64,000 nucleotides of DNA from Gammaproteobacteria bacterium (GTDB lineage: Bacteria > Pseudomonadota > Gammaproteobacteria > Pseudomonadales > Azotimanducaceae), in NCBI GenBank assembly GCA_026708185.1, contig JAPOVK010000010.1:1-64000 (forward strand), read 5' to 3'. This document shows positions 7,186 to 58,708 of the stretch, piece by piece (within the stretch, counting starts at the first letter, position 1; every line of letters begins with the position of its first letter). A program made the translations under genes and the position numbers. A model generated the notes under the pieces. That model was not told the origin of the DNA. It saw only the letters and a list, made by a program, of their open reading frames with translations, and did no database searches.

Positions 7186-8532
7186 ATGAGCGCGCAGCCC
7201 AAAGTACCCGTTTCCATCCTCACCGGCTTCCTCGGCTCCGGCAAGACGACCTTGCTCAACCGGATCTTGAGCGAAGAGCACGGCAAGCGCATTGCCGTGA
7301 TCGAGAACGAGTTCGGGGAGGTCGGCATCGATCAGGCGCTCGTCATCGACGCCGACGAGGAGATCTTCGAGATGTCGAACGGCTGCATCTGCTGCACGGT
7401 GCGCGGAGACCTGATTCGCGTGCTCGGCAACCTGATGAAGCGCCGCGACAAGTTCGACTATGTGCTGGTGGAGACCACGGGGCTCGCCGATCCAGGTCCG
7501 GTTGCTCAAACCTTCTTCATGGACGACGAGATTCGCGCGGAGTTCTCGCTTGACGGGATCGTCACGCTCGTCGATGCGGCCCATATCGAGCAACAGCTCG
7601 GCCGAAGCGACGAAAGCACCGAGCAAATCGCGTTCGCAGACATCCTCGTGCTCAACAAGACGGACCTCGTGGACGACGAGGTGCTCGACAGGCTCGAGGC
7701 CCGGCTCCGAGATATGAACCGCATGGCGCAGGTCGTTCGTAGCGAGCGCGCGGACGTCGCCGTCGACACGGTACTCAACCTCGGTGCCTTCGACCTAGAC
7801 CAGGTTCTCGAGCGTCGCCCCACCTTCCTCGAGCCGGAGTACCCGTTCGAGTGGACTGGAGTCTATTCGCTCGATAACGGCCGCTACGAACTCAGCCTGT
7901 CCGACGGACCTGACCCGGCCATGTCGCTCGTCGTTGTGTCCGACCAGGGCACCGATGACACTGCGCTGCGTGACGGTGCGGAATGGTGCGTGCGGCGATA
8001 CGCCGAGCCTGCGGCACCCATCGCCCCGGGGGAAGGGATTCCCGTTGGAAAGCACGTGAACCTCGAGCTCGACTCACCCGGGCGCAAGTCGTTCCTCGTG
8101 GAGGTCGACAAACCCGCGCACATCGGGCTCTACGCCCAGCACACGGCGGAAGAGTTCGATCTCCAACTGATCGACGCCCGAAGGGCGCCGATCACCCCGG
8201 CGGTCGAACGCACCTGGGTTGCACAGCACGAGCACGACGACGAGGTCGGCTCGATCGCGATCGAGACCGACGGCGACGTCGATTCCGAGATGCTCAACGC
8301 CTGGCTCGGCAGGCTGCTTCGTGAACGCGGCGTGGACATCTTCCGGATGAAGGGTTTCATCAGCCTCGCAGGCGATCCGCGTCGCTTCGTCTTCCAGGGA
8401 GTTCACATGCTTTTCGACGGACAGCCGGATCGTCCGTGGGGAGACTCGCCGCGACGCAACCAGCTCGTCTTCATCGGCCGCAACCTCGATGAAACGAGCA
8501 TGCGGCAGGGGTTCGAGGCATGCTTGATCTAG
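7186..8532 (+). CDS. COG0523 family GTPase, probable zinc metallochaperone
   Basis: G3E GTPase of the CobW/ZNG1/ZigA group, 448 residues. Seen: P-loop GFLGSGKTT (about residues 14-22), the metal-binding motif NGCICCTVRGDL, switch II ETTGLADPG and the guanine motif LNKTD. The CobW C-terminal domain closes the protein (FRMKGFISLAGDPRRFVFQGVHM). Between them, roughly residues 225-355, is an extra beta-rich stretch instead of the usual short His-rich loop; only HEHDDE remains. The ATG at 7186 is preceded by GAAGGAGA. Such proteins deliver zinc to client enzymes during zinc limitation. It is the first gene of a two-gene operon with the WD40 protein and faces the Zur box. Confidence 0.88.
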   Translation: MSAQPKVPVSILTGFLGSGKTTLLNRILSEEHGKRIAVIENEFGEVGIDQALVIDADEEIFEMSNGCICCTVRGDLIRVLGNLMKRRDKFDYVLVETTGLADPGPVAQTFFMDDEIRAEFSLDGIVTLVDAAHIEQQLGRSDESTEQIAFADILVLNKTDLVDDEVLDRLEARLRDMNRMAQVVRSERADVAVDTVLNLGAFDLDQVLERRPTFLEPEYPFEWTGVYSLDNGRYELSLSDGPDPAMSLVVVSDQGTDDTALRDGAEWCVRRYAEPAAPIAPGEGIPVGKHVNLELDSPGRKSFLVEVDKPAHIGLYAQHTAEEFDLQLIDARRAPITPAVERTWVAQHEHDDEVGSIAIETDGDVDSEMLNAWLGRLLRERGVDIFRMKGFISLAGDPRRFVFQGVHMLFDGQPDRPWGDSPRRNQLVFIGRNLDETSMRQGFEACLI

Positions 8533-52158: not shown

Positions 52159-53508
52159 GTGCTAGGTAATCGCCGCCCGGCAGGGCAGCGGTCGTCACCT
52201 TCTCAAACACCGTCCGACGCGGCATCGGAACCTGCGCCGTTCGCGGTCGCGGGACGGGCGCGCATGTTCGACGCCCTGGCGATCCGCGACTTCCGCCTGC
52301 TGTGGGTCGCCAACCTCGTCGCCTCCTTCGCGATGCAGATGCAGATGGTGGCGCGCGGCTGGTTGATCTACGACATCACCAGCTCACCCATGGCTCTCGC
52401 GTGGGTCATCCTGTCTTTCATGCTGCCGTCCTTCGTGTTCTCCCTGTGGGGCGGCGTCATCGCCGACCGGATGCGCAAGAAGCCGATCATGATCGGCGCG
52501 CAACTGCTGAACACGGCGGCGACGGTGCTACTCGCCGTCATCATCTATCGCGGCGATGTGACGTTCTGGCATTTCATCTACTTTGGGCTCTTCAACGGCA
52601 CGATCCTGTCGTTCTCCATGCCGGCCCGCTCGGCGGTGATTCCCGAAATCGTGCCGAAGCACGTCGTGGTCAACGCCATGGCCTTGCAGAGCTCCACCTA
52701 CTCGCTCTCGCGCGTCGCCGGACCATCGCTCGCCGGCTTGCTGATCGCCTGGTTCGCGGGCGGCGACAACACCTCCGCGACGGGCGTGGGCCTCGTGTTC
52801 TACGTCATCGCGGCGATGTACCTCGTCTCCGTGGCGGCGACGGCGATGCTGCACTACACCGGCGACCCTAGGGCCGGGACCAACGCGGGCATGATCGAGG
52901 ACATCGCCGAAGGCTTCCGGTACATGGGCCGCGAGCGCATCATCCTCGGCCTCATGGTGATGGGCATCGTGCCGTTCATGTTCGGCTTCGCACCGACCTT
53001 CCTGGCCCCCGCGTTCAACAAGGAAGTGATCGACGGCGGACCGGACACCCTGGGCTACCTGATGACGGCATTCGGCGTCGGGTCGCTGATCGGCGCGCTC
53101 ACCCTCGCACGACTCGGGGACATCGGCGGCAAGGGCAAGGTGCTGTTCGCGGCGACCTACATCTGGGCGGGGGGCGTGGCGGCGTTCGCGCTGTCGCCCG
53201 GCCTGGTCGCGGCCATGATCTTCGGCATCTTCATCGGCGTCTTCAGTTCGCTGGTCGGCTCCCTCAACATGAGCGTCGTGACGCTCGCCATCAAGCCCGA
53301 AATCCGCGGTCGCGTCATGGCGATCATGATGATGACCCACGGCATCATGCCGCTCGGCATGTTCCCGGTCGCCGCCGCGGCCGAGTTCATCGGCATCGAT
53401 GTCGCCTTGTTCCTGAGCGCGGTGTTGCTGGCCGTCTCGATGGCCGCCATCGGGTGGTGGTTCCCCGAACTCAAGAAGATCGACAAGGGCCACGGGGCCG
53501 AGGCCTGA
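52159..53508 (+). CDS. MFS transporter of the EntS-like (MFS_3) exporter type
   Basis: Inner-membrane transporter. From the ATG at 52264 (MFDALAIRDFRLLWVANLVA) it has 414 residues and 12 helices; the open frame allows a 449-residue product from 52159 with a polar extension. MFS_3 hallmarks include LSFMLPSFVFSLWGGVIADR, MRKKPIMIGAQLLNTAATVL and MPARSAVIPEIVPKHVVVNA. Relatives export siderophores or drugs. It stands alone between a terminator and the broken DUF2235 gene. Confidence 0.85.
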   Translation: MLGNRRPAGQRSSPSQTPSDAASEPAPFAVAGRARMFDALAIRDFRLLWVANLVASFAMQMQMVARGWLIYDITSSPMALAWVILSFMLPSFVFSLWGGVIADRMRKKPIMIGAQLLNTAATVLLAVIIYRGDVTFWHFIYFGLFNGTILSFSMPARSAVIPEIVPKHVVVNAMALQSSTYSLSRVAGPSLAGLLIAWFAGGDNTSATGVGLVFYVIAAMYLVSVAATAMLHYTGDPRAGTNAGMIEDIAEGFRYMGRERIILGLMVMGIVPFMFGFAPTFLAPAFNKEVIDGGPDTLGYLMTAFGVGSLIGALTLARLGDIGGKGKVLFAATYIWAGGVAAFALSPGLVAAMIFGIFIGVFSSLVGSLNMSVVTLAIKPEIRGRVMAIMMMTHGIMPLGMFPVAAAAEFIGIDVALFLSAVLLAVSMAAIGWWFPELKKIDKGHGAEA

Positions 53509-53524: not shown

Positions 53525-53904
53525 GTGAGCGTGTCACCCAAAGATGCCGGACAGACCCTGGTCTTCAGTGTCGACGGCACCGGCAACGAGCCCGCCGACG
53601 CCGACGGCTTCAAGCAGGACGAGAGCATCAGCAACGTCTTCAAGCTGCACATCCTGCTCGGCGGCGGGATCGCGCCGCAGCCACCGGTGCAGTCGCGGAG
53701 CGGCCGCCAGCAGAGGGCCTTCTACTACAACGGCATCGGCACCCGGCAGGACGGGGCCTCGATCCCGCTCCTCGGTCCCCCGTACTCCGCCGGTCGGCGC
53801 ATGGTCAACCTCGCGCTGGCCCCGACCTTCAGAGATGTCCGGCAGATTCTCGCCGAGGCCGAAGCCGACCTGACGGCCGCCTACCGGGCGGGCGAAGCAT
53901 CGCC
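53525..53904 (+). pseudogene. 5' fragment of a DUF2235 (T6SS effector-like) hydrolase gene
   Basis: Encodes TLVFSVDGTGNEPADADGF, SISNVFKLHILLGG, QRAFYYNGIGTRQDG and DVRQILAEAEADLTAAYRAG. This is the start of the DUF2235 alpha/beta-hydrolase domain that includes Tle1-type phospholipases. The reading frame then runs into the reverse complement of the murA 3' end. The family continues just here with a GFSRG nucleophile motif, which is absent. The gene resumes at 55462. Confidence 0.78.
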
Positions 53905-55296
53905 TCAAGCAACCGCGCCGGGGAGCGCGAGGTGGCGACCCCTCGCAAGGCGTTGCGCGGGCACGTCGATGTCCGCGCCGACGCTTGCGAGGCGTTCTGG
54001 CACGTCCACGTAGCCCCGTTCTATGAATCGGGTCCCGAAGATGGTGGTCTCCCCGTCGGCGATGAGCGCCGCCAGCAGGTAGGCGAACCCGGCGCGCAGG
54101 TCCGGAATCTCGATTTCCCGCCCGGCGAGCGGCGTGGCCCCCTGGACGATGGCGCTGTGAGGGAAGTTGCGGTCCTTGAAACGGCATTCCTTGCCGCCGA
54201 GGCAATCGTTGGTCAGCGTGATGTTGGCCCCCATGTCGTTCAGCGTGCGGGTGTAGCCGAATCGCTGTTCGTAGACCGTCTCGTGCACGACGGATACGCC
54301 GTGGGCCTGGGTCAGGAGCGTCACCATCGGCTGCTGCCAGTCCGTCATGAAGCCGGGATGCACGTCTGTCTCGATGTGGATGGGGTCAAGCGGGTCGCGG
54401 TGGCGGAAGAACGTGATGGCGCCCGGGTCGACTTCGAACCCGCCGCCGATCTTGCGCAGGGTATTGAGGAACGTGATCATGGCTGTCTGATCCGCCCCTT
54501 CGATGCGCAGCCGGCCTTCTGTCGCGACGGCCGCCATCGCGAATGAGGCCACTTCGATACGGTCGCGGACCGGGTCGTGGTGCGCGCCCGAGAGCCGGTC
54601 TACGCCCTCGATCACGATTTTCCGGTCGGTATCGATCTGGATGAGAGCGCCCATTTTCTGCAGGAACAGCACCGTGTCGACGATCTCGGGCTCCACTGCG
54701 GCATTGTTGATCACGGTGGTCCCTTGCGCGAGACACGCCGCGAAGATCGCATTCTCGGTGGCGCCGACACTGGGGTAGGGGAGCGCGATCACGGTGCCCC
54801 GAAGCCGGTCGGCCCGGGCGGTGTAGCCGTCGTCGTCCTCGTCGATCTCCGCACCCATCTTCCGCAGCAGGTCGATGTGGAAGTCGATGGGCCGTTCGCC
54901 GATGTTGCAGCCACCCACGACGGGTACCCGGGCCGTCCCCGCCCTGTGGAGCAGGGGAGCGACCAGCAGGATGGGGATGCGGTTGAACCCCGAATAGCGC
55001 TCGCCGACGGTGGTCGACGCGATCCGGGGCGTCGCGATGTCGATGGAGCCGTCCTCGAGCCGGTCACAGGTGGCGCCGATTTCCGCCAGCATGGCGAGGA
55101 CGACATCGATTTCGGTGATGTCCGGCACGTCGTGGAGCCGGCAGGGTTCTTTCGTCAGAAGCGATGCGACGAGTTGCTTGGTGACCGCGTTCTTGGCGGG
55201 CTGGGCACGGATACGCCCACGCAGCGGACGATGTCCGCGGATTCGGTACAGGTTGAGATTGGCGTCGGACACCGGTTCGACGACAGTCGGGAACAA
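53905..55296 (-). CDS. murA: MurA-like UDP-GlcNAc 1-carboxyvinyltransferase, inserted copy
   Basis: EPSP-synthase-fold enzyme of 463 residues that adds enolpyruvate to UDP-GlcNAc, the first step of peptidoglycan synthesis. Seen: QPAKNAVTKQLVASLLTKEP (Lys35, Asn36), the active-site Cys130 in VVGGCNIGERPIDFH, and FIERGYVDVPERLASVGADI near the end. The usual KMRAS motif is changed to GFNRIPIL, so this is a divergent copy, maybe not the housekeeping one. The start is TTG at 55296 or GTG at 55272, neither with a clear ribosome site. The gene sits backwards inside a DUF2235 gene with repeats at its 5' side. Confidence 0.85.
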   Translation of the reverse strand: MFPTVVEPVSDANLNLYRIRGHRPLRGRIRAQPAKNAVTKQLVASLLTKEPCRLHDVPDITEIDVVLAMLAEIGATCDRLEDGSIDIATPRIASTTVGERYSGFNRIPILLVAPLLHRAGTARVPVVGGCNIGERPIDFHIDLLRKMGAEIDEDDDGYTARADRLRGTVIALPYPSVGATENAIFAACLAQGTTVINNAAVEPEIVDTVLFLQKMGALIQIDTDRKIVIEGVDRLSGAHHDPVRDRIEVASFAMAAVATEGRLRIEGADQTAMITFLNTLRKIGGGFEVDPGAITFFRHRDPLDPIHIETDVHPGFMTDWQQPMVTLLTQAHGVSVVHETVYEQRFGYTRTLNDMGANITLTNDCLGGKECRFKDRNFPHSAIVQGATPLAGREIEIPDLRAGFAYLLAALIADGETTIFGTRFIERGYVDVPERLASVGADIDVPAQRLARGRHLALPGAVA

Positions 55297-55358
55297 GTAC
55301 GTGATTTAACGGGAACACCGGGGTGAATAAAAGGGGCAAAAGGGGAGTGAAAAGGGAG

Positions 55359-55452
55359 AGAGCCCTCAGCCGGGGAGCGCGAGGGGCTTGCCCCTCGCAA
55401 ATGAAAGAGCCCTCAGCCGGGGAGCGCGAGGGGCTTGCCCCTCGCAAATGAA
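55359..55452 (-). repeat. Two tandem 47-bp palindromic repeat units upstream of murA
   Basis: Units at 55359-55405 and 55406-55452, followed by AGTGCCCC that resembles a third start. Each has the 9-bp inverted repeat GCGAGGGGC/GCCCCTCGC (55379-55398, 55426-55445) with loop TT on the plus strand. On the minus strand they match the 45-bp units at 1-144, with CTTTCATTTGCG replacing CTTTCTTGCG. In both places the array is just upstream of a gene and in the same orientation as it. Confidence 0.9.
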
Positions 55453-55461
55453 AGTGCCCCA

Positions 55462-55771
55462 CAGCTGGCGCGCGGCTTCGCGACCCTGCTGCTCGAGGCC
55501 GACGAGCGGCGGGCCGTGGCGTTTCTCGGCGTATTCGACACCGTCGTCGCGATGGGCGGGCTGATCTCGAGCGACGTGGTCATCAAACAAGGCGCCCGCA
55601 CGAATGCGTGCAGGGCGCGGTGCACGTCGACGCCATCGACGAGGACCGCGTGGCCTTCACGCCGACGCTGATCGACGGACGGTTGAGCCCGCCGATCCAC
55701 GGTATCGGGGGTCTACGCCGCTACCGACTGCCTTGGTGGTGGCGGCTGCGGAGAATCGTCTTCGGTGCCTG
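55462..55771 (+). pseudogene. 3' fragment of the DUF2235 hydrolase gene
   Basis: Starting at 55462 the plus strand reads QLARGFATLLLEADERRAVA, FLGVFDTVVAMGGLISSDVV, the continuation of the DUF2235 domain broken at 53904. A second frame change follows: QGAVHVDAIDEDRVAFTPTL is found in another frame and ends at a stop near 55771. Between the two fragments about 12 codons are missing, the place of the GFSRG nucleophile. Confidence 0.72.
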
Positions 55772-55808
55772 AGAGGCCGAGGGGCGAGCCGCCCGCCGGC
55801 TCGAACCG

Positions 55809-56012
55809 CTAGGCCGGCTTGCCTGTCGCCGGGATCAAGCCCTCGCGGGCGAGCCGCTCGCGATCCATCTTGGCCAGGATCCGCTCCTTCTCGGGATCCC
55901 GCGGACGTCGGCCTGGAACTCGACCCGGGGTCTCGGCCGCCAGGATCCCAAGCCACCGCTCACGCTTCAGGCGCTGGATCTCAGCTTGGTACTCGTCGTA
56001 GTCGACCTTCAC
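55809..56012 (-). CDS. Small charged protein paired with a nucleotidyltransferase
   Basis: 67 residues, MKVDYDEYQAEIQRLKRERW then PRDPEKERILAKMDRERLAR, highly charged and helical. The GTG at 56012 overlaps the stop of the nucleotidyltransferase gene. The family is not recognised; small partners of such nucleotidyltransferases are often antitoxin-like, so a toxin-antitoxin or defence pair is possible. Confidence 0.6.
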   Translation of the reverse strand: MKVDYDEYQAEIQRLKRERWLGILAAETPGRVPGRRPRDPEKERILAKMDRERLAREGLIPATGKPA

Positions 56013-56569
56013 GGGGCGAACTCTACCTCAAGGCATTGCAGGGCTGCCGCCTCCTCCGGGATCTCGCGCGTGCGCCCGCGCAGGTAGTCCCAGTCCAACC
56101 GGTCGCCGTGCAGTCCGGCGAGCCTTCGCGTCCAGCGGCTATCCTCCTCGCTGCGCCAATGTACCCAGGCCCGGAGCCGGTCGATGAGCAAGTCCTCAAC
56201 GCCGATGACGACAATGCGCAAGCCCTCGACGTCGACCTCGGTTCGCCTGGCATCCTCTCCGGGCAAGCCTGCCGGCGCGGGCGCCTCGAATAGCAGATCG
56301 AGCGCGGCGTGGTGCCAAAAGCGCCCTTCCTTTTCGAACCCCAAACGGGCAAAAGCCGCGTCCACGTCCGCTCCCGTCGGCAGGGCCAAGTCGACGTCGT
56401 GGGTGGCATATCCCCCCGCCGTGTAGAACTCCAACGCCGCGCCGCCGACGAGGATGGGCTCGATTCCGAGCGGAGCCAGTTCCCGCGTCAACAGACCGAG
56501 CGCCAGCAACCGGCGGCGTCGGGGATCCGCCTCATCACGCAGGCGGTCAAAGCCTTCTACCGTGGTCAC
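56009..56569 (-). CDS. Nucleotidyltransferase (DUF6036/AbiEii-like)
   Basis: 186 residues. The minimal nucleotidyltransferase signature is LVGGAALEFYTAGGYATHDV DLAL, i.e. GG-A with the DxD-type acidic pair in THDVDLAL. VDVEGLRIVVIGVEDLLIDR follows as in this family. GTG at 56569 overlaps the amidase stop. It may transfer a nucleotide to RNA or protein. With the small gene downstream it resembles type VII/MNT toxin-antitoxin modules, although it is tied to an amidase operon. Confidence 0.72.
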   Translation of the reverse strand: MTTVEGFDRLRDEADPRRRRLLALGLLTRELAPLGIEPILVGGAALEFYTAGGYATHDVDLALPTGADVDAAFARLGFEKEGRFWHHAALDLLFEAPAPAGLPGEDARRTEVDVEGLRIVVIGVEDLLIDRLRAWVHWRSEEDSRWTRRLAGLHGDRLDWDYLRGRTREIPEEAAALQCLEVEFAP

Positions 56570-58107
56570 GACTGCCAGCGCGTCTCGTCCGGTCTGTCGA
56601 ACACCGGCAGCGACGCCTCCAGGTGCCTCATCACAGCAAGCACGATGTCCTCGCGCCACGGGTTGGCCACCACCTGGACGCCGATGGGGATGCCCTCCGA
56701 CGACGTGCCGCCGCGCACGACGCCCGCGGGCCAGCCGGTTAGGTCGTACGCCTCGGTGTAGCTCGCATCCTCGGTGGGGAACGGCGAGTCGCCAGGCGCG
56801 GGGTGTCTGGGCGCCGGGTGGGCGTTGACCGGCGAGATGAGCACGTCGTAGCGCGCCATGTGCTGCTGCATGCGACGCCGATAGGCCTCGAACCGGGCGA
56901 ATTGACCGGTCAGCGCCGCCGCCGGGATCTCGTCGGCACCGGGGGACTGCGCGAACTGCCGGAACCAGTTGTTGCCGTAGTCCTCGACCTTGGTCCCCGT
57001 CTCGTCGAGCAGCGCCCGCACGCCCGCATGAGCGCCCACCGGCCAGAAACCGCCGCCGAGAGCGGTCGTCTCCTCCACCCCGTCGAGACGGTCCCGTTGC
57101 ATTGCAAGCCCGGCCCGATCGAGGATCGCTTCGGCCACCTCGACCACCCCAACGGTTTCCTCGTCCGGGCTCGCAACGCCATTGTCGATCATCACGGCGC
57201 AACGCAAGTCGGCCAAGTTCACGGCGCTGGACGCAGCGAGCGGAATCGGCTGGATGCGCGTGTCGAGGCCGCCCGGTCCCCAGATGACCGAGAGGATCAA
57301 CTCCAAGTCGTCAACAGTCCGCGCCATGGGCCCGGCGTGGCTAAGGAAGTCGGTCAGCATCCCCGGCGGCAAGCAGTGTCCGGTGCGCGGCACGCTGCCG
57401 CTGGTCGGCTTGATGCCCACGGTGCCGCAAGAATGCGACGGCACCCGGATGCTGCCGCCGTAGTCGGTGCCGATGTCGAACGAGGTCAGCCCCGCCGCAA
57501 TCGCCGCAGCCGCACCGCCGCTGCTGCCGCCCGGCGAGCGGTCGAGGTCGTAGGGGTTGTTGGTGAAGCCGTGGATGTTGTTGTGGGTCTCGAAAGAGAG
57601 CGTGAACTCCGGGGTGTTGGTCTTGCCCAGGAGGATCGCGCCAGCCGCCTTGAGTCGCGCCACCACCGTGGCATCGGCGTCGGGAACGAAGTCCTTGCGG
57701 CCCATCGTGCCCCAGGTCGAGACCACGCCCGCCGTGTCGAAGCAGTCCTTGATTGTCATGGGCACGCCGTGCAGCGGACCGAGCGAGCGTCCTTCGGCGA
57801 GTGTCCGGTCGGCGTCCCGAGCCCGCTCGCGAGCATCGTCCGCCAAGGCGACCACCGCGTTCAGTCGCGAATTGAAGCGCTCGATCCGCTCGAGATAGCG
57901 CGCAGTAAGCTCTTCGCTTGTGAGTTCGCCGCTGCCAATCAGCGCCGCCTGGGCGGTGGTCGAGAGGTACGGGAGTTGGTCTTCCGAGGTGGCCATGGTC
58001 GTGGACTCGCTTGCTGATCTCGAGGGCAGGGCTGCCAAGACTACTGGCACGACAGCGGACTTGACGACCGTCCGCCGCGAAACGCCGCCAGCTTCGTCAC
58101 GGTTCAT
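56566..58107 (-). CDS. Amidase (amidase signature family), exported by Tat
   Basis: 513 residues. Ser-cisSer-Lys triad: Lys in GVPMTIKDCFDTAG, Ser in SPGGSSGGAAAAIAAG, Ser in DIGTDYGGSIRVPSHS. The N terminus has a twin-arginine signal (VSRRTVVKSAVVPVVLAALP), so it acts outside the cytoplasm. ATG at 58107 begins MNRDEAGG. It should cut an amide or carboxylic ester; the substrate is unknown. Translation is coupled to the nucleotidyltransferase gene by a GTGA overlap. Confidence 0.87.
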   Translation of the reverse strand: MNRDEAGGVSRRTVVKSAVVPVVLAALPSRSASESTTMATSEDQLPYLSTTAQAALIGSGELTSEELTARYLERIERFNSRLNAVVALADDARERARDADRTLAEGRSLGPLHGVPMTIKDCFDTAGVVSTWGTMGRKDFVPDADATVVARLKAAGAILLGKTNTPEFTLSFETHNNIHGFTNNPYDLDRSPGGSSGGAAAAIAAGLTSFDIGTDYGGSIRVPSHSCGTVGIKPTSGSVPRTGHCLPPGMLTDFLSHAGPMARTVDDLELILSVIWGPGGLDTRIQPIPLAASSAVNLADLRCAVMIDNGVASPDEETVGVVEVAEAILDRAGLAMQRDRLDGVEETTALGGGFWPVGAHAGVRALLDETGTKVEDYGNNWFRQFAQSPGADEIPAAALTGQFARFEAYRRRMQQHMARYDVLISPVNAHPAPRHPAPGDSPFPTEDASYTEAYDLTGWPAGVVRGGTSSEGIPIGVQVVANPWREDIVLAVMRHLEASLPVFDRPDETRWQS

Positions 58108-58213
58108 GGAACGCCCTCGAATGTCGGCGTGACGGTCATTGAGCCATAATCGGCGCATCGGCGACAACGTGCACTGGCTTAAGTACACGCGCCAGCGAGG
58201 GATCAGCCAACCC

Positions 58214-58708
58214 ATGACCGACCTGACCTACGTCACGGACGAGATGCGTGCCGCACAAGGCCGATGGGGCGAACCGTGGACGGCGCCGCCGATCACGGCA
58301 ACGGACATCCGCCGCTGGGCGATGGCGACCTTCTATCCCGAGCAGCCGCCGCGCATCTACTGGGACGCCGACTACGCGGCCACGACGCAGTGGGGCGGCA
58401 TCGTGGCACCGCCAGACTTCAATCCGTTCGCCTGGCCGGTGGAGCGGCCAAGGGGGCGTGGCTCGCCCGGGCTCTCCGGGCGTCGTCCCGACGGCAAGCC
58501 CCTGACGGGCATGAACGGCGGCCAGACCGACACCTACGGCGTCCCCATGCGCCCTGGCGACGTGATCAGCGCACGCAACCGCCTCGTCGACTGGTGGGAG
58601 CGCGAGGGACGATTGGGTCATACTCTTTACGTCCGCTCGGAGATCGAGTGGCGCAACCAGGACGACGAACTGGTGCGTACGCGGTTCTCCATCGGCATTC
58701 GCTACTGA
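58214..58708 (+). CDS. MaoC-like dehydratase, N-terminal half (FAS1-like)
   Basis: 164-residue hot-dog-fold protein. ATG at 58214 (MTDLTYVTDEM) is chosen. It shows WTAPPITATDIRRWAMATFY, IVAPPDFNPFAWPV and GDVISARNRLVDWWEREGRL, like the N-terminal half of a hydratase of the acyl-CoA/MaoC type. The next gene codes the second half, so the two form a heterodimer for reversible hydration of an enoyl-CoA. It is divergent from the amidase gene. Confidence 0.78.
   Translation: MTDLTYVTDEMRAAQGRWGEPWTAPPITATDIRRWAMATFYPEQPPRIYWDADYAATTQWGGIVAPPDFNPFAWPVERPRGRGSPGLSGRRPDGKPLTGMNGGQTDTYGVPMRPGDVISARNRLVDWWEREGRLGHTLYVRSEIEWRNQDDELVRTRFSIGIRY

Follow-up and report, generated by a model that had tools for sequence, protein, structure and literature searches.

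A foreign-type murA bounded by palindromic repeats has evidently displaced the resident gene and interrupts a DUF2235 gene in a gammaproteobacterial genome

The window, the whole stretch of 64,000 nucleotides analysed here (G000:C13:1-64000), belongs to G000, a draft genome of 5.13 Mb in 65 contigs that is 97.08% complete. It contains a murA gene of foreign type that lies between palindromic REP repeats inside a broken DUF2235 gene. Comparison with related genomes showed, as judged from their sequences, that the resident murA has been displaced and that the present position of the newcomer is derived, and xenologous displacement of murA in this lineage is well supported. Taken as a whole, the explanation that we consider likely is that the window gene serves as the housekeeping murA of the organism, is foreign by descent, and came to its present site in G000 by relocation of a REP-bounded block.

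The murA block and the gene it interrupts

A 1.55-kb block at positions 53903 to 55453, made up of a minus-strand murA and palindromic repeats, splits a plus-strand gene of the DUF2235/PF09994 (Tle1-like) family. As the reference for the uninterrupted gene we used G007, a sister genome from the same genus, in which the gene is a single open frame of 379 aa. An MFS transporter gene and an amidase gene lie on either side of it, as they do in the window (52159 to 53508, plus strand, and 56566 to 58215, minus strand), where they serve as the left and right synteny anchors. In the nucleotide alignment, homology of the 5' piece (53525 to 53902, plus strand; 80% identity) stopped at 53902 and started again at 55464. 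A preliminary description of the window had placed these limits at about 53904 and 55462 and had proposed an insertion into a once-whole gene; both readings agree with the intact, identically flanked gene found in G007. The objection that the pieces might stem from two DUF2235 paralogues fails because both align to one G007 frame and because the 5' piece, which as a query matched 6 of 38 genomes (G000 counted), has one match in G007.

Relative to G007, 28 nt of the gene (its positions 359 to 386, about 9 codons), comprising the GFSRG stretch, are without a counterpart in the window alignment, and by eye weak homology may begin already at 55454 on the right, which would make the loss smaller. 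The previously described loss of the GFSRG codons therefore stands, at a smaller size than the 12 or so codons first given. At the left junction, a 15-nt spacer (53903 to 53917) lies beyond the DUF2235 match, the homology with the G007 murA block starting at 53917. Comparison of the window with the empty site in G007 revealed, by eye, no target duplication at the junctions. The 3' part is broken a second time, a feature that had escaped the preliminary description: piece A (55464 to 55685, plus strand) is 83% identical in nucleotides to positions 387 to 607 of the G007 gene, and piece B (55651 to 55773, plus strand; its alignment overlaps piece A) is 76% identical to positions 1010 to 1130, with a deletion of about 400 nt (G007 607 to 1010) and a frame break. 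Against PF09994, the pieces scored 18.6 bits (5' piece, E 0.0013, with the frame run on to 54013) and 13.9 bits, below the cut-off of 27. With its nucleophile stretch gone and its frame broken, the gene no longer encodes an intact Tle1-like catalytic domain and is now evidently dead in G000. Between its remains and the amidase gene lies a two-gene insert (55774 to 56583, minus strand) consisting of a 67-aa ORF and a DUF2204-like nucleotidyltransferase gene; this insert is missing from G007, where the amidase frame abuts the DUF2235 frame.

The murA gene itself occupies positions 53905 to 55296 on the minus strand and encodes, from a TTG start, a UDP-GlcNAc enolpyruvyl transferase of 463 aa. 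The protein scored 466.5 bits against NCBIfam TIGR01072, passing the curated equivalog cut-off of 392.7, in keeping with the complete MurA-like gene recognized at the outset; against the separate equivalog NF009470 it scored 313.9 bits, below the cut-off of 552. Thirty-three solved structures matched it at E 1e-20 or better; one was named as NikO and the other 32 as MurA-type. The catalytic positions of MurA, which we take to be Lys22, Asn23, Cys/Asp115, Arg120, Asp305, and Arg397 in E. coli numbering, are present, with the pattern KNCRDR, the commonest in its row group, and the motif GGCNIGERP. Profile matches end at residue 444 of 463, and the tail is therefore best read as an addition, written in part by the repeat. 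Upstream, a 63-bp leader (55297 to 55359, minus strand) is common to the G007 murA, with homology stopping at the start of the repeat pair. A promoter scan of positions 53800 to 55600 returned a single match, which lies within the gene, and found no terminator.

Between G000 and G007, murA had a dN/dS of 0.094 over 445 codons and a dS of 0.257, compared with a dS of 0.23 for the MFS neighbour; the murA and MFS values were the ones used from this run, in which several other open-frame pairs were non-coding frames. The gene is thus apparently under purifying selection, and the open frame together with this ratio point to a functional enzyme. It gave the one murA match in the 97%-complete draft at a threshold of E 0.001. 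No second, housekeeping murA was found beside it, the resident gene being a wreck on contig C18, and the idea of an extra murA copy carried as cargo is ruled out by this sole match.

Foreign descent and the fate of the resident genes

The window MurA was 94% identical to the G007 copy and 88 to 89% identical to those of three genomes from another genus, and only 32 to 38% identical to the MurA of 14 other genomes in its own genus. In a search of 38 genomes (G000 counted), the window type was found in G007 (94%) and G021 (88%), the best matches of the other 35 being 34 to 39% identical. Among 206 genomes of the family (G000 counted), it was present in five (G000, G007, G021, G230, and G232), another MurA, matching at E 1e-72 or weaker, was present in 191, and 10 were without a match. 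Part of a neighbouring genus, g7, carries the window type, and three of its copies, L069 (OX638346), L070, and L077, were compared. Fourteen of the 16 genomes behind loci of or near the window type (58 to 94% identity; genome completeness not given) had one murA match; G007 has an additional 62-residue remnant, and a Streptomyces has three matches.

In a quick protein tree of 109 rows, with loci taken from the best 80 of 108, the window type grouped with alphaproteobacterial bins, two other proteobacterial bins, two Chloroflexota rows, and two Actinomycetota rows, apart from the MurA of the family. The window and G007 copies paired (SH-aLRT 98) and joined L069 among the g7 rows (95). In a careful protein tree (18 rows), support for the forks that unite the window, G007, and g7 rows was below 80, and they were drawn open; in a DNA tree of 8 rows, the window-G007 fork reached 100/100 and its join to the g7 rows 97/97. 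Forcing the three g7 rows into one clade was disfavoured (p-AU 0.033 for protein and 0.023 for DNA), which we take as moderate support because the group had first been noticed on the quick tree. In addition, about 210 bp upstream of murA in G007 are common to L069, L070, and L077 at 76% identity. The gene tree thus evidently conflicts with the kinship of the genome, as in xenologous displacement.

The genus's own murA place could be recognized on contig C18 of G000 by the order alcohol dehydrogenase, FAH-like gene, murA, and metallo-beta-lactamase-fold gene (names from the sequences). Here all that is left of the resident murA is its N-terminal and C-terminal pieces with about 30 nt from the middle; the FAH-like gene reads open over about 310 codons, as it does in G013. 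The same neighbourhood in G007 harbours the foreign murA, and its FAH-like gene is cut at both ends: native homology ends at position 7626 of locus L068, after which come the foreign block, a degenerate REP, and then two remains of the resident murA, an inverted scrap and the C-terminal piece. The two sisters thus appear to have lost the resident gene through different kinds of damage. Because each carries its foreign murA within a gene that the other has as an open frame, we take both sites to be derived. We dropped the notion that an FAH-like gene stands between dehydrogenase and murA genus-wide, since it was seen in G013, G014, and G009 and not in the alignments of G012, G002, and G008.

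Traces of an older replacement lie at the canonical site, kdsC-bolA-murA-hisD. Where murA is present there (G233 and G234, two of two), the bolA and hisD alignments are 2293 to 2422 nt apart; in the six genomes checked that are without it (G000, G007, G012, G013, G232, and G021) they are at most 62 nt apart, and a search with the canonical MurA protein came up empty in the 10 to 11 kb around bolA-hisD of each. With one wreck on C18, another in G007, the canonical site closed, and an assembly that is 97% complete, the resident orthologue is evidently absent or dead.

The residue at the Cys115 position, the fosfomycin target, differs among these MurA types. In the genus's own MurA it is Asp, as seen in all 14 of the other genomes of the genus. 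In canonical MurA it is Cys, both in all 23 family and order rows examined and in 7 of 7 canonical-type g7 sequences from 6 genomes; G233 and G234 count in both sets. Cys is found again in the window type in G000, G007, L069, L070, and L077. MurA thus appears to have been replaced at least twice, with a change of the target residue from Cys to Asp and back to Cys. Eight related alphaproteobacterial rows with the window MurA family (L071 to L076, L078, and L079) all have Asp for Cys, and in each of the eight genomes this is the sole murA match. One g7 genome, G228, holds two canonical-type genes (G228:C149:103718 and G228:C60:34368) that are 58.6% alike; with a contamination of 6%, a binning mix may account for the pair.

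The repeats and the proposed relocation

Two 47-nt REP units lie directly upstream of the leader at 55360 to 55406 and 55407 to 55453 (plus strand), as the preliminary description had it; the register of the first was chosen from the consensus of other copies. A third, degenerate core had been overlooked. It covers the last codons and the stop of murA (53918 to 53946, plus strand) and gives the block REPs at both ends in the same orientation; it is also found at the 3' end of the G007 murA and not at the three g7 copies compared. By eye, the consensus reads GAGCCCTCAGCCGGGGAGCGCGAGGGGCnnGCCCCTCGC. The window holds a further three-unit array of the family at the contig end (14 to 133, minus strand), and none of 100 shuffles of the window reached the observed five repeat matches. 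Allowing up to 3 mismatches, we counted 198 copies in G000, 82 in G007, 0 to 39 in 14 other genomes of the genus, and 11 in G021, and none in the other 21 of the 38 genomes searched; a reversed-pattern control gave 0 in G000 and G007 and a single match, in G012, across all 38. Folding of single units was no better than that of shuffles (z-scores -1.47, -0.76, and 0.09). As already described, no transposase was found among the non-overlapping frames of the block, which murA and the repeats fill.

The murA blocks of G000 and G007 are homologous from the outer edge of the 3' repeat (53917) up to the base that precedes the upstream pair (55359). The landing place in the DUF2235 gene holds CTTCAGCCG, which the 5' arm of the repeat also has, in the same orientation. 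Of the 2242 placements along the two strands of the G007 gene, this site ranked first alone for one arm variant and tied first for two others. This REP-likeness was recognized post hoc and is suggestive.

From these observations, we infer REP-mediated relocation as the best mechanism. The foreign murA would have entered from a g7-like relative, and its 3' end would have received a REP before the divergence of G000 and G007. The newcomer may then have existed alongside the resident murA and rendered it dispensable, the resident being lost later. In G000, the REP-bounded block of murA and leader would finally have moved into the most REP-like spot of the DUF2235 gene, probably by REP-REP recombination, in which an excised circle reintegrates, or through a REP-acting transposase; landing at such a spot would explain the missing GFSRG codons. 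Counting against this scheme, neither a cognate RAYT nor, by eye, a target duplication was found, none of 18 other REP places compared showed a moved flank, and the G007 murA has a REP on its 3' side only and none upstream.

A rather unlikely alternative is that illegitimate recombination moved murA into the DUF2235 gene, the REPs having landed at its ends before or afterwards without playing a part. REPs are indeed abundant and insert singly, and since the 3' REP is also present in G007, where the gene sits elsewhere, that repeat predates the move in G000. Against this, the homology with the G007 block stops at REPs on both sides, no other placement in the gene is more REP-like than the landing site, and 198 copies of 47 nt amount to about 0.2% of the genome, an arithmetic that would make REPs at both ends of a random insert improbable.

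We also think it unlikely that G000 and G007 acquired the foreign murA separately, each from a g7-like donor, with no relocation inside the lineage. Such a history is suggested by the two different sites: the gene interrupted in either sister is intact in the other, and the G007 copy, for instance, occupies a truncated FAH-like gene whose G000 counterpart is open. The dissimilar wrecks of the resident murA and the open G000-G007 pair in the careful protein tree would fit it too. It is opposed by the pairing of the two copies in the quick protein and DNA trees, by the 3' REP that they share and that was not seen in the three g7 copies, and by a murA synonymous divergence about equal to that of the MFS neighbour.

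Less probable than either is a true single-gene mobile cassette, in which REP-murA-REP would jump time and again, driven by a REP transposase (RAYT). That the gene has a different derived position in each sister genome, and that REPs come and go, could be read this way, but the G007 copy is without upstream REPs, the g7 copies are without a 3' REP and share one context, each genome has one full murA copy, and no cognate RAYT was seen in G000. A PF01797 search found two weak relatives of Y1 (HUH) transposases there, G000:C23:71445 (L188) and G000:C13:69089-69301 (L164), the latter frameshifted and below the Pfam cut-off; in the 15 and 4.5 kb around them, the repeat did not occur within 5 mismatches, and one match at 6 mismatches looked like chance. 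By eye, the DNA beside both hits repeats a different motif, perhaps a repeat family of its own.

We then compared 18 other REP places of G000 with G007 (40 of 275 candidates were scored). Both flanks adjoined in G007 at 12, one flank could be placed at 4 (the other flank of one of these being a dispersed repeat), and neither at 2. In none of the 18 did the flanks fall at two unique, distant G007 sites, so a general cassette system is not evident, and we rejected REP-driven gene shuffling in general. At 8 of the 12 colinear sites G007 has no repeat, at 3 it has one as well, and at 1 it keeps a remnant. Single repeats thus evidently come and go in this lineage without dragging genes along, which makes the murA move exceptional. 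Of the two possibilities offered in the preliminary description, a REP-assisted insertion accordingly stays plausible, given REPs at both ends and the turnover of single copies, and a cassette bringing an extra murA does not, given the sole murA match. The left flanks of G000:C3:157639 (L014) and G000:C10:51292 (L024) each match several G007 places, which suggests additional families of dispersed repeats, about 100 bp long.

An assembly chimera at a repeat is very improbable: at least nine G000 contigs (C1, C9, C13, C16, C30, C33, C37, C45, and C49) start, within their first 300 bases, in REP copies or arrays, where the draft assembly breaks, but the left junction is a single divergent 29-nt core in unique sequence, without a long repeat, and the right side rejoins the same broken DUF2235 gene, unlike a chance join.

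Fosfomycin and comparison with known systems

The link to fosfomycin drawn in the preliminary description is reversed by these data. According to a review (PMC4790336), E. coli MurA with Cys115 changed to Asp is active and fosfomycin-insensitive, and Asp is found in intrinsically resistant species. The window copy carries the Cys of fosfomycin-sensitive MurA, which rules out a fosfomycin-resistance cargo, and it is the genus's own MurA that carries Asp. Selection on murA by fosfomycin-like compounds is a guess, and since the newcomer returns Asp to Cys, fosfomycin pressure alone would not favour it. Why one genus has Asp at the target and the newcomer Cys is the question that this raises. The bacterium is probably sponge-associated: related records are bins named COS4, RHO1, and CAR1, and a study of reef sponges (PMC8163846) sampled Coscinoderma, Rhopaloeides, and Carteriospongia. 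For sponge-associated chlamydial bins, PMC9666466 reports a gene cluster closest to fosfomycin clusters, its product unconfirmed. It is conceivable, and in our view doubtful, that murA is a swappable essential gene in these symbiont-like gammaproteobacteria, taken over successively by distant MurA types (Cys, Asp, Cys) under pressure from natural products that the host community directs at MurA; REPs would then be the handles that let the newcomer be moved within the chromosome.

A search of the literature, covering top-ranked matches and few subscription papers, found no report of such a murA displacement or of a REP-bounded relocation of an essential gene. In a composite transposon or an integron gene cassette, repeats likewise flank a single gene; the block described here differs in having no transposase, no target duplication visible by eye, and one copy per genome.

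The repeats resemble the GTAG-type REP/REPIN elements served by RAYT, as portrayed in PMC3733652 and PMC8266576 (see also PMC3116915), in being short palindromes with a G-rich tag 5' of the stem, in their high copy number, in occurring as singletons and tandem arrays, and in having some copies inside genes and empty sites in a relative. Unlike those elements, they carry the tag GGGGAG in place of GTAG, and in contrast to the RAYT system as described there, the high-copy palindrome comes without a RAYT gene flanked by cognate repeats in the PF01797 search. They also differ from the REP/REPIN elements of these texts in bounding a whole essential gene that has moved: REPs, usually tiny intergenic repeats, stand here at its exact edges.

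A close parallel is the xenologous displacement of essential genes such as that for ribosomal protein S4 (PMC3087516), in which a foreign homologue likewise becomes the sole copy and the resident copy is lost. In the present case, by contrast, wreckage of the displaced murA persists in both sisters and differs between them, the canonical site shows an older displacement, and the newcomer in G000 occupies a REP-bounded, derived site. The replacement of an essential antibiotic-target gene can thus be read here step by step, from donor relatives, a resident gene broken in two ways, an empty landing site, and the old canonical site.
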